From IMG/VR virus record IMGVR_UViG_3300032323_003286, positions 1-48,153 of that record: DNA of 48,153 nucleotides, one strand, 5' to 3'. The position numbers were made by a program, and so were the translations under genes. Each line of letters opens with the position of its first letter. Position 1 is the stretch's first letter. Of this stretch, positions 6,450 to 42,529 are shown piece by piece. Below the pieces are notes generated by a model, which worked only from the letters and a program-made list of their open reading frames with translations, was not told the DNA's origin and did no database searches. Source of the stretch: a virus.

Positions 6450-9400
6450 TTAAAGCAAACCTTTCTGTGTAAGATCTTCAATGTATTTTCCTATATTTTG
6501 TTCTAGTTTATCACTTATATATTCAGGTTTAATTAAATATGGACTACTTACTCCAGAAGGGACAGATCCATCAAATATAAAAGATCCAGCACTATCAACA
6601 TATCTTCTTAAAACAAATTGATTTACATTAATTCCTGATCCTGAAATAGGGTTATCAAGGAGGATTAAAAGGTAGGTAAGAAGAGGAGTAGTAATTATAG
6701 ATGCTTCTTGTACCATAAAAGTTTTGGTTTCATCTCCTTCAAATCTAAATTCATCCCCAGTTTCAATTGTAAAAGGTAAAGTTACAGGATTAAACCCAGA
6801 CCCAGCAATATCTTTTTGATGTGTTTCTTGGTTTCCATAATATTGAATTAAAGCAGAACTAGTAGAGTATAAATAATTAGAAAATGCCGGGGATGGGTTT
6901 GTGAAAAATAATCCAGTAGTACTTATTGGTGCCGTAGGTAGTGGATTAGTTGATATTTTCCAAGTACTAGTAGCATTATATCCTACATTACTATTTCCTG
7001 TTATTAATTGAATTTGGAATACATCTCCTGCTACTAATTCAGTTGCAGGGATAGTTGTAGTAAACGATAATGGTTTAACAGTTCCTCCAGGTATATATCC
7101 ACTTCCGTTAACATATCCTGTTACTCCTACAGGAGTAAGTACACTTGATCTATTTCTAATAATACGAGCATAGGCAGTGGATGTAGTAGAGTTATTATTA
7201 AATATATTAAGATCTACTTGGAATATTAAATCTAACCCTTCAGTTATTAAAGCAGCAGATGCAGTATAAACATTTGGATTAGCTAATGAAGTACCAACCG
7301 AACTTCCAGATACTATAATAGTATCCATTGCTATTCCTGACCAAGAAGTAGAACCAAATCCACCAGAAGAATCTTTTAATGTAGCTGTATAGTCATTAAC
7401 GGATAAAGTTAGGTTAGGATTATCATCTGTAAATTCAATTTCAGGGGCAAATGACATTGAAGGATTTTGGTAATGTTTAATTTGGTTGTAAAGAATAGGT
7501 TCAATTTTAGTCCCACCTCTAAATACAGTTTTATATTGAGGTGAAGTATTTGTACTGGTTCCTAAAGATTCTATTTTAACTTTTTCTCCAGAAACAAAAG
7601 TACCTTGATTAACGTATAACGCAATATCATCTGTGTTTGGGGTTATAATATCTCCTTCTTCACCTATAAAGAATTTAATAAATGCAGCAGAAGCGTTCAT
7701 TTTTTCAGGTGCCCATCCACCAATAGAATCACAATATGCTACATACACTTTATTAGATTCAACTGAAGGTAATTTACCATATGTATCTTCATCTCCAGAA
7801 GTCCATGTATTTAAGAATTGAGAGGTAGTTTTACTACCTTCATATCTAGGAATAATATGGCGTTTTGTAGTATAGTTTGAATCTTGAACTGCTGCTTTTG
7901 TAGCGCTACTACTTATAATAGCTTCAAAATTTGTTGGAACAAGTAATCCAGTTGAATAATCTACATCTTCATAGATTAAACTTGTTCTTCCATCTTGTAC
8001 ACTATTTAATAAAGCATTTTGGTCACTATTATAAAAATTAGGAACAGTAATATATGGTTCTAAAATTACTGAATCTTGAACAGCTGCAATGGGGGCAATA
8101 CTTTGAGTAACTACTATTTGAAAATTACTCATAGTAACTGCAGTTCCAAAAGGAACAACAGCAAAAAAGTAACTTTCTTGCCCTTGTAACGGGACAAAAG
8201 ATCCGGTAAATGTAAATACAGTTGGAGTGGAAGGCACTGAAAATGTTGTAGAACCATATGTAGTTTCTTCAGTGTTTCTAAAATTAAAATTAACTGCAGA
8301 GTTAGGGCCTGTAGAGTTATTTAATGTTAGACTAGCTGTGATATGTAAAATTATATTTGGAGTATTAATATAAGTAATATTTCCTGAGGAAGAATTGTAT
8401 GCATTTTGGATATCTAAACTAGAGGTAAATTTAATAGAACTAGTTACAGCCGTTCCTGAGAAGTATCTGGGAGTAGATATAGAACCTGATATTTTATAGT
8501 TTTTTATTTCATTGTCTACTGTTGAGTATTGTGAATTAATTTCAATATCATATAAATAATAAGTGGGGTATTCAGTAATATTATTTATTTTATAATTAGT
8601 AGCAGTAGAATAATTTGAGTATTTTATTAAAAGATTAGTTATTTGTCCTAATGGAATTGTTGAATTATTTCCATTATAATCATTTTTAGCTATTTTAATA
8701 AAATTAACCCCTAAAGTATTAATTCCTCCATTAGATGGTTTTTTTCTTCCAACACTAATTAAAATTTCTCCATCATATGGTACTGTAGAAGAATTAAGAA
8801 GTTGGTTTGTAGAAAATGTTGATTGGAGAGATTGGTCAAAATTTGAATTTAAAAATAAGATTGGAGTATAGTTAAAAACAATATTTTCAACAGCATATGG
8901 TTGATTTAAACTTTGAGTTGTGACTATAACAACGGATCCGCTAAATTCACCATCGTAAAATTCATCTTGATCATCATGTAGTGTAACTATAAGTCCTAAA
9001 GGTGATTGGACTGTTTCATACCAACTTTGAGATACATTTCCTATATAGTTAAATGGTTCAAATGACCCACCAGTACCACCACTAAAATTCTCTATAGTTC
9101 CTAGATTATAATCATTCCATTGAGGAACAATTGTGCCTGATACTGAAATATCTTGGAAAGTAAAAGGAATATTAGTAGTAGTACCTAAATTAGGTGCATA
9201 ACTAAATTCTAAATATCCTGAGGTTACGGTAGAAGGATTTGAATTAGGTTTAAATCCTTCAATTTGGATAATATCTCCTGGTATTGCTGTAAATGAAGAA
9301 GAAATATATTCTGTAATAGAAGACCCAGGAGTATTAGTAGCAAATCCAGGGATTACTGAAAATCCATTTTGGGTTATAGTCCATCCGGTTAATCCTGATC

Positions 9401-27129: not shown

Positions 27130-27142
27130 CGGTTATGAAGCG
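27130..27142 (-). promoter_or_regulatory. Conserved 13-base trailer of tRNA-like elements, copy 1
   Basis: CGCTTCATAACCG on the minus strand, 11 bases beyond the 3' end of the tRNA-like element. An identical copy follows the other tRNA-like element at 41632-41644. It might guide 3' processing. Confidence 0.55.
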
Positions 27143-27153
27143 GTGTCTTAATA

Positions 27154-27211
27154 GTGAGGGGTGGAGAATCGAACTCCATCTATGTCTTGACCTTACCACC
27201 ATGGCCCCTCT
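27154..27211 (-). tRNA. tRNA-like element lacking an anticodon arm, copy 1
   Basis: The minus-strand 58 bases have an acceptor stem AGAGGGG/CCCCTCA (six pairs, one mismatch at the end) and a perfect T-arm TGGAG-TTCGATT-CTCCA. Between acceptor and T-arm are only 26 bases (CCATGGTGGTAAGG...ACATAGA), with a D-arm-like GGTGGTAAGG but no room for an anticodon stem-loop. A normal tRNA has about 42 bases there. It may be a decayed tRNA or a tRNA mimic. It lies in tandem with tRNA-Met. Confidence 0.5.
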
Positions 27212-27257
27212 GGGCCTGCAGACCCATTATTTAACTTAATTTCTAGTGGTAAGGTCA
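27188..27257. repeat. 12-bp perfect inverted repeat
   Basis: TGACCTTACCAC (27188-27199) and GTGGTAAGGTCA (27246-27257) are exact reverse complements 46 bases apart. The distal arm also forms a 5-bp stem, 7-base loop hairpin (TAGTG-ACCTTAC-CACTA on the minus strand), the geometry of an anticodon arm. The proximal arm lies inside the tRNA-like element, so the two could pair in the precursor. Confidence 0.7.
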
Positions 27258-27322
27258 CTACCCACACATCCCGGAATCTTAGCTAGCATTTCAGCCCCGG
27301 TATTTGTTACAACTGTATCTTG

Positions 27323-27396
27323 TGGTCCCAACAGGGCTCGAACCTGTGACCTGCTGATTATGAGTCAGCTGCTCTAACCTACTGAGCTATAAGACC
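27323..27396 (-). tRNA. tRNA-Met (CAT anticodon)
   Basis: A full cloverleaf of 74 bases. Acceptor GGTCTTA/TGGGACC pairs with two G-U; D-arm GCTC/GAGC; anticodon arm GCTGA-CTCATAA-TCAGC; T-arm ACAGG-TTCGAGC-CCTGT; discriminator A. No CCA is encoded. A CAT anticodon in loop CTCATAA could be elongator Met or lysidine-modified Ile; sequence alone does not decide. Confidence 0.93.
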
Positions 27397-41584: not shown

Positions 41585-41622
41585 AAAAAAAACCTGCCGT
41601 GCGTTCGTATCCACACGGCAGG
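41585..41622 (-). terminator. Strong intrinsic terminator
   Basis: Minus strand CCTGCCGTG...CACGGCAGG with nine perfect pairs and a 12-base loop, followed by eight T residues. The clearest rho-independent terminator in the window. It ends the transcript of the tRNA-like element and the DUF932-type gene. Confidence 0.85.
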
Positions 41623-41631
41623 TAAAAGAAA

Positions 41632-41644
41632 CGGTTATGAAGCG
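41632..41644 (-). promoter_or_regulatory. Conserved 13-base trailer of tRNA-like elements, copy 2
   Basis: CGCTTCATAACCG, identical to 27130-27142, lying 5 bases beyond the 3' end of the second tRNA-like element and 9 bases before the terminator stem. Confidence 0.55.
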
Positions 41645-41649
41645 TTTTG

Positions 41650-41712
41650 TAGTCAGGACAGGACTCGAACCTGTTGCTGGTCATAGTGCGTTTACCCTTC
41701 CGCCACCTGACT
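41650..41712 (-). tRNA. tRNA-like element lacking an anticodon arm, copy 2
   Basis: The minus-strand 63 bases have a perfect seven-pair acceptor AGTCAGG/CCTGACT, a Leu-style D-arm TGGCGGAAGGGTAAACGC with stem GCG/CGC, and a perfect T-arm ACAGG-TTCGAGT-CCTGT. Only 13 bases (ACTATGACCAGCA) separate D- and T-arms, so no anticodon arm fits. Discriminator A. It cannot decode in the usual way. Perfect acceptor and T stems argue against simple decay. Confidence 0.55.
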
Positions 41713-41719
41713 TACCTGC

Positions 41720-42529
41720 TTAGGCAGCCACGAACTCGGCTGCCACTGCAAATAGCTTTTGGTTAATTTCCATGTCTTGTTTGAAATTCTTCACTTTACG
41801 TGCTTTGCGAATTTTCACTCCAGCCATGTATTGGAAATCACCTTCAAGAATTTTCTCTTGAATCACGTTGAATACTGACCATAGGTCTTTACCTTTATCT
41901 TCGTCACGTGTTGGCTCAAGCAATTTGTCCAAATCAACAGTGATGTTTTTCAATTCATCTTCTTTGAAACGAGCTGCGAGTGCTTTTGTAGCGAGCTCTT
42001 TTGCTTGCTCTTCACTCAATTGAGTTTGTTTCATTTTGTTCATTGATTCAACTGTTAGAGGCAACTGTTCAACCATTGCTCGGATTTGCTTTTGCAATTC
42101 CTCAAATGTGTATCCCATGTGACGCATTTTAACATCATTGAACTGTTCAGTTGAAATCACCAAACCGTTTTCACATACCATACGGAACAAACCGGCTGTA
42201 AATGTAAACGCGTTTTTTCCATCATTGGAATTTGTCAATAGGATTTGTGGAAACACTGTGTCTCCGTCTGCACCGTTGATCACAACTTCTGGGTTACGGA
42301 ATACAACTAGGTGTTTTTGGAACCCCATTGTTCCGGTTTTACGTGCTTTGACCTCTTTAGCATCAACTACACCCCAACCTAGTTCGGCCATATCCTCAAT
42401 CACTTTATGTGTTGGAATGTGTGTAAACTTGTCTGAAACCGTTGGTGCGGCTGTTGCTGTAAAAATTGAGCGTGCTTGGTTTTTAATTTCGCTCATTGTC
42501 AAAAAACTGTCTTTGCTTAGATCTAACAT
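41720..42529 (-). CDS. DUF932-type protein, paralogue 1
   Basis: The 269-residue protein has the layout of phage/plasmid DUF932 proteins: PTHKVIEDMAELGWGVVDAK, GFQKHLVVFRNPEV, then FTFTAGLFRMVCENGLVIST. A C-terminal DLWSVFNVIQEKILEGDFQY and NFKQDMEINQKLFAVAAEFV complete it. The function of the family is unknown; it is often near plasmid or phage recombination genes. The paralogue at 43843-44652 shares the C-terminal pattern. Codons here use more G and C than the flanking small genes. The tRNA-like element follows 7 bases later in the same transcript. Confidence 0.85.
   Translation of the reverse strand: MLDLSKDSFLTMSEIKNQARSIFTATAAPTVSDKFTHIPTHKVIEDMAELGWGVVDAKEVKARKTGTMGFQKHLVVFRNPEVVINGADGDTVFPQILLTNSNDGKNAFTFTAGLFRMVCENGLVISTEQFNDVKMRHMGYTFEELQKQIRAMVEQLPLTVESMNKMKQTQLSEEQAKELATKALAARFKEDELKNITVDLDKLLEPTRDEDKGKDLWSVFNVIQEKILEGDFQYMAGVKIRKARKVKNFKQDMEINQKLFAVAAEFVAA

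Follow-up and report, generated by a model that had tools for sequence, protein, structure and literature searches.

Phage tRNA-like elements with exchangeable RNA domains in place of the anticodon arm

In transfer-messenger RNA (tmRNA) the ends resemble a transfer RNA (tRNA), and a different RNA domain takes the place of the anticodon arm. Here we describe a small tRNA-like element that lacks the anticodon arm, found in the virus record IMGVR_UViG_3300032323_003286 of IMG/VR, together with its relatives in metagenomic phage contigs. The whole analysed stretch, in the following called the window, comprises 48,153 bases, and its minus strand holds most genes as well as the element. The two domains of tmRNA are mentioned in PMC3753655, which names a tmRNA of 347 nucleotides (nt); the elements span only 53-190 nt (range of 199 elements with a GTCAGG acceptor). 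The engineered tRNA scaffold, as presented in the same text, keeps acceptor, T- and D-arms and offers the anticodon stem-loop as insertion site for a chosen RNA. Its design is the same, including recognition by cellular factors, but it is man-made while the phage elements are natural and carry many different inserts. Species 1 RNA of phage T4 (rnaC) is a late RNA of unknown function (PMC9697503, PMC3014915). Judged by eye it is the nearest phage precedent, being a stable RNA from a tRNA region with a perfect 3' T-arm and no evident anticodon arm. Its acceptor is poorly paired, however, and it gives no match to the Rfam tRNA model and only a tRNA-Sec match of 17.5 bits, below the cut-off. The pseudo-tRNA tRNA-Other of Bacillus cereus stands outside translation and was proposed to form a portion of a regulatory RNA (PMC3399842). 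Unlike the phage elements it keeps an anticodon (Trp), is chromosomal and flanks a genomic island.

A preliminary description of the window had reported seven perfect acceptor pairs and a Leu-style D-arm just 13 bases away from a perfect T-arm, and all of these are indeed present (Table 1). The acceptor is followed by A73 and C74, the D-arm is of the Leu/Ser type, and U8, the GG of the D-loop and a TTCRA T-loop are in place. A standard anticodon arm with a stem of 5 base pairs (bp), a 7-nt loop and U33 is absent, the 13 nt standing in its position. Both ARAGORN and Rfam with fast filters, run over the whole window, detected tRNA-Met only and missed the element. With permissive filters on a local stretch of 201 nt, the Rfam tRNA model (RF00005) matches it from 41712 to 41650, exchanging the 17 model positions of the anticodon arm for 7 nt; the score is 39.9 bits against a cut-off of 29 (E 1.9e-7). 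The possibility that the anticodon arm of an ordinary tRNA had been overlooked, which would have refuted the preliminary description, is ruled out by this alignment, since the tRNA model itself skips the arm. Identity with tmRNA is rejected as well: the tmRNA model gives no match at the element with fast or permissive Rfam filters, and the 13-nt linker is too small for a tag frame or pseudoknots. A scan of the window for a T-arm plus acceptor returns this element as the sole match.

Related loci were gathered from relatives of the DUF932 gene upstream of the element (best 80 of 163), with a trailer pattern (26 stretches, some without an element), with a trailer-plus-T-arm pattern (87 stretches, many plainly due to chance) and with a T-arm/acceptor pattern (at least 120 matches; the family exceeds the numbers counted here). 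The last pattern fixes the T-stem and the 3' acceptor, so their conservation is partly selected for, while D-arm, cores and the absence of the anticodon arm lie outside this selection. In 300 loci a T-arm with seven paired acceptor bases occurs in 677 elements including ordinary tRNAs (599 distinct), compared with 8 after first-order shuffling of these loci. At least 221 of the distinct elements, from metagenomic phage contigs, have an NGTYRRG acceptor and are defined by this 5' motif together with paired acceptors. Arrays are present in several contigs: all 14 contigs tested contain 2-10 copies of the element 3' end, with no match to the reversed pattern, and the richest arrays hold 10 copies (contig of locus L193) and 9 copies (contig of L209).

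The shared chassis consists of the acceptor AGTCAGG/CCTGACT, U8, the D-loop GG and a TTCRANY T-loop. After removal of duplicates and matches close to contig ends, GTCAGG lies 20-200 nt upstream of 187 among 201 T-arm/acceptor matches and downstream of 12. Base conservation breaks off abruptly behind the D-arm: U8 reaches 96%, G10 85%, A14 83% and G18 80%, and in positions 26-34 the top base never exceeds 39%. The D-stem covaries, with 56 of the 75 non-GCG elements pairing against a mean of 37.3 and a maximum of 46 in 100 shuffles. The flanks are also tRNA-like: C74 is found in 215/221 elements and 470/504 ordinary phage tRNAs, T at position -1 in 173/221 and 352/504, respectively, and A73 directly follows the acceptor in 198/221 elements. 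The set of 504 tRNAs leaves out 57 GTCAGG/GTTAGG-type elements and tRNAs without a recognised T-loop. Positions 73-74 and -1 of the elements match the context of true phage tRNAs. Two members (L226:4982-5153 and L070 near 8987-9128) have a D-loop extended by a long additional insert, and the chassis therefore seems to take cargo there too.

The anticodon arm is, as a rule, missing from the family and not from the window copy alone. A 5-bp stem with a 7-nt loop and U33 is seen in 11 of the 213 elements with lengths up to 165 nt (from 221), against a chance expectation of 6.8 from shuffled cores, whereas the same crude test is positive in 263/315 ordinary tRNAs. What replaces the arm is highly diverse. 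When inserts below 20 nt (10/221) are omitted and a few over-long parses (such as e288, e61 and e255) are kept, the remaining 211 interiors group into 162 sequence clusters, of which 142 hold a single sequence; some cores recur, identical or nearly so, in more than one contig. Cluster A, with 9 sequences, pairs in 209/209 cells. Both partners have changed in 9 of its pairs, of which 4 belong to core helices and 5 to the acceptor and T-stems; none of 500 shuffles equals this, and slid controls give no more than 2. In cluster D the strands GTTGAA..TTCAAC are exchanged for GAGCAA..TTGCTC, and cluster B has one core pair with a double change. For 129 core representatives (one per shared 12-mer, 30-130 nt) folding is on average more stable than in dinucleotide shuffles, with a mean z of -0.61 (t -6.7), 44 below z -1 and 8 above +1. 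Where tested, the interiors of the relatives appear to be structured RNA under selection. Some interiors (L307, L209, L234) include a second T-arm-like hairpin of the GGTTCxAxxCC type, which points to recombination between tRNA-like genes.

The exchange of interiors can be followed place for place behind the DUF932 gene, whose stop codon lies 7 nt before the start of the window element. Among 81 DUF932 loci (the window and the 80 relatives) an element or tRNA is found within 420 nt in 35 and none in 46. At a protein identity of at least 79% our script detects an element in 16 of 17 loci, and the remaining one, L008, has an element with an acceptor mismatch. Sorting by eye of these 17 close loci together with L018 and L020 gives about 12 different cores at the one site, meaning that a conserved chassis encloses unrelated interiors at one orthologous position. 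Six more distant relatives (61-63% identity) have a chassis element with the acceptor GGTCAAG, and 11 others (62-65%) an ordinary tRNA-Leu(UAA). This tRNA shares the D-arm type and the place after DUF932 with the elements but, unlike them, has an anticodon arm, a variable arm and another acceptor sequence. The sharing of the site by tRNA-Leu(UAA) and chassis elements suggests that the elements may have arisen through arm replacement in a tRNA-Leu. Three more kinds of apparently structured RNA, of about 65-95 nt, lie behind the DUF932 stop and ahead of the element in other loci (L003/L004/L009, L006/L018/L022 and L013-L016).

In tRNAs the acceptor/T stack, the T-loop and the elbow are the parts read by RNase P, RNase Z, the CCA-adding enzyme and EF-Tu. 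Since the elements keep these parts, have lost the codon-reading part and contain a folded core that is selected where tested and exchanged, we favour, at about even odds, the interpretation that they are natural tRNA scaffold RNAs which mature and protect an exchangeable RNA effector. We infer the following course. A phage transcript would carry the chassis with acceptor, D-arm, T-arm and elbow and would be trimmed like a tRNA by RNase P and RNase Z of the host, the CCA-adding enzyme probably acting on its ends too. The product would be a short, stable and protected RNA with defined ends, which could not decode because a folded domain stands in for the anticodon arm. The active part would be the core domain, most likely an RNA effector or a decoy directed against host or rival factors, and its rapid exchange among phages, with recombination at the conserved element ends, would fit an arms race.

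Several observations weigh against this interpretation. The folding energy of the window element does not differ from shuffles (z 0.25) and is uninformative; because of this value and because almost no core is left, the window copy could be a remnant. It is among the shortest of its family and may represent an emptied or a minimal form. A D-stem with a GG loop is absent by a simple test in 32/213 elements. The elements of L014-L016, called tRNA-Asn or tRNA-Lys by ARAGORN, have a 5-bp arm in which G replaces U33. Finally, core covariation was sampled in a few clusters of 3-9 sequences, most of the clusters being single.

The rival that survives best, unlikely in our estimation, is a role in message processing. 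A tRNA shape would mark cuts between genes, in the manner of mitochondrial tRNAs, and thereby define the 5' end of the message that follows or the 3' end of the one that precedes; the interior would be a spacer folding aside. The elements sit between codirectional genes and 0/201 lie inside a same-strand open reading frame (ORF) of more than 100 amino acids (aa). They end 10-29 nt before an ORF with ATG start in 51/195 cases, compared with 76/1942 random positions, and an ORF of at least 35 aa starts within 60 nt of 88/214 elements, 131/529 ordinary tRNAs and 419/1878 random positions. This closeness to ORFs keeps the explanation alive. A spacer should drift, yet the cores show compensatory changes and recur nearly identical in different contigs, and the window element precedes a terminator hairpin, where no next message needs a 5' end. 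The 88 downstream genes form 77 clusters and include no common partner gene.

Improbable to a greater degree is the purpose proposed in the preliminary description, namely a mini-tRNA that as a decoy occupies RNase P or Z, EF-Tu or a host defence directed at tRNAs. The conserved features are those that these factors read and copies are numerous in some contigs, as in the arrays of 10 and 9 mentioned above. A decoy would neither need nor explain more than 100 different interiors, several of them structured. An anticodon nuclease is ruled out as a direct target, because an element without an anticodon cannot be its substrate decoy.

We regard it as quite improbable that the elements are decaying or chimeric phage tRNAs without function. 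The window copy has lost nearly its entire middle, and the second T-arm-like hairpins of L307 and L209 look as if tRNAs had recombined. Decay is at odds with the perfect acceptor and T-arm in more than 200 distinct copies (acceptor pairing being required by the scan), with the covariation of chassis and cores and with the persistence at one orthologous place in the closest relatives. The view of the preliminary description that the element is a functional non-decoding RNA rather than a product of decay is supported by the 221 relatives, the multi-copy contigs and the covarying stems rather than by the second locus in the window on which it drew, the so-called copy 1 (see below). Least probable of all is an acceptor charged with leucine without an anticodon and used off the ribosome: E. 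coli LeuRS does not need the anticodon, and the Leu-type D-arm, the frequent A73 and tRNA-Leu(UAA) at the syntenic site agree with it, but the syntenic tRNA-Leu has a different acceptor, a D-arm is lacking in some elements and the cores are left unexplained.

If the scaffold interpretation holds, nature uses the tRNA-scaffold design of biotechnologists on a large scale inside phages. A more far-reaching version, which we consider possible though rather doubtful, is a modular RNA effector system with a fixed, host-matured tRNA chassis and a huge set of horizontally exchanged cores, each with a target of its own among the factors of hosts or competitors, in phages probably of Bacteroidota. It would be the RNA counterpart of swappable anti-defence gene cassettes. 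Elements are found in 12 stretches of bacterial assemblies, nearly all from metagenome-assembled genomes, several of which are labelled as Bacteroidota (Sediminibacterium, Flavobacterium, Saprospiraceae, Chitinophagaceae) and others as Neisseriaceae, Peregrinibacteria, Helicobacteraceae and Rickettsiaceae. As these labels are mixed, the host range of the family is only a guess.

The family is large and apparently unrecorded so far. The elements were overlooked because tRNA finders miss them or label them as undetermined or odd tRNAs, and the tRNA model is the only Rfam model above its cut-off in the elements tested. A blastn search with two arrays and one element against named isolate phages gave partial matches only, and the matches listed correspond to annotated tRNAs, are short or fall in places without annotation. 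The "tRNA-OTHER" genes of phages phi92 and Antha proved on inspection to be an odd tRNA of a different kind, and the match in the crAss-like phage cr4_1 is described below. The DUF932 gene has its closest named relative in Flavobacterium phage immuto (43%), where a strict spaced chassis pattern finds no match; this negative is weak, since the pattern also failed on most of the known carriers (1/8 records matched). An intron in the anticodon loop is rejected, since the elements were judged too short and no intron model matched in the loci scanned; a group I intron would need more than 53-190 nt. Our literature searches, confined to an open-licence library, brought up no account of such a family. 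Novelty is claimed for the family and not for the window copy alone, and on a cautious view it could be a variant of non-decoding tRNA-like RNA. The family raises the testable question of what the cores bind. It also provides a stock of structured RNA domains from nature, and it may be relevant to a long-standing puzzle, the T4 stable RNAs of unknown function.

Table 1. Coordinates of the tRNA-like element and of the accompanying features in the window
Feature	Position	Strand	Description	Basis
tRNA-like chassis element	41651-41712	-	62 nt, plus A73 at 41650	Sequence; Rfam tRNA model; relatives at the same site
Acceptor, 5' strand	41706-41712	-	AGTCAGG	Sequence
Acceptor, 3' strand	41651-41657	-	CCTGACT	Sequence
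D-arm	41688-41703	-	GCGGAAGGGTAAACGC type	Sequence
Linker at the anticodon-arm position	41675-41687	-	ACTATGACCAGCA, 13 nt	Sequence
T-arm	41658-41674	-	ACAGG-TTCGAGT-CCTGT	Sequence
Trailer hairpin	41629-41647	-	AAACG-CTTCATAAC-CGTTT, conserved 9-nt loop, covarying stem	Loop-motif survey
Intrinsic terminator	41585-41623	-	Hairpin 41592-41623, then T-run	Sequence; kept downstream of the element in relatives
DUF932 gene	41720-42529	-	269 aa, syntenic anchor upstream of the element	Pfam PF06067, E 1.1e-31
Copy 1 region	27147-27265	-	T-arm-like hairpin and 14-bp helix, then trailer module	Best fold
Ordinary tRNA-Met (CAT), for comparison	27322-27396	-		ARAGORN, Rfam

Downstream of the element the strong terminator noted earlier is present, and the 13-base trailer CGCTTCATAACCG said to be common to copy 1 has an exact match there at 27130-27142; two or more matches to it, allowing up to 2 mismatches, occur in 1 of 100 window shuffles. 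Among 135 distinct occurrences of the loop motif CTTCATAAC, 42 are closed by a stem of 3 bp or longer, compared with 4/49 for the reversed motif, and the closing stems vary (AACG/CGTT, ACCG/CGGT, ACTG/CAGT, TGCT/AGTA, ATCG/CGAT). As this hairpin is found before terminators both with and without a tRNA-like element, the trailer is a separate, covarying hairpin belonging to a 3' end module rather than to the element. In loci L084, L105, L106, L087-L089, L101 and L104 the CTTCATAAC hairpin lies at the stop codon of the DUF932 gene or another gene with no tRNA-like element; the protein ends in ..AS and the TAA stop falls inside the loop. The loop also resembles a CAU anticodon loop (UUCAUAA).

The claim that copy 1 is a second locus of the same mini-tRNA finds no support. 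The Rfam tRNA model has nothing there at E<=10, the tmRNA model reaches only 7-8 bits, and in the best fold the supposed D-arm strand pairs instead with an upstream strand in the 14-bp helix. The stretch 27147-27265 folds with -40.1 kcal/mol (z -2.82, equalled by 0/200 shuffles), a longer stretch giving z -1.49, and its 11-bp inverted repeat has 0 matches in viral contigs. Because true chassis elements precede the same 3' module in three relatives, copy 1 may be a divergent member of the family with a long core.

A few further RNAs and genes accompany the elements. An element-rich region contains a near-threshold match to freshwater-1 RNA (L202:4124-4186, 70.1 bits, cut-off 72). The string GTTGTTCCCTTGAGAAAGGAAT recurs beside elements in different contigs (L226 near 3935; L006 after 8995) and is perhaps another small RNA. 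In L315, from the crAss-like phage cr4_1, positions 430-681 match a group I intron with 74.9 bits, and about 600 nt further on the stretch 1300-1530, with no Rfam tmRNA match, looks like what we take to be the start of a tmRNA; it is followed by an anticodon-poor tRNA-like end that scores 22.6 bits with the tRNA model, below the cut-off. The ORF directly after the element of L198 encodes a GroES-like protein (Pfam Cpn10, E 7.6e-11).
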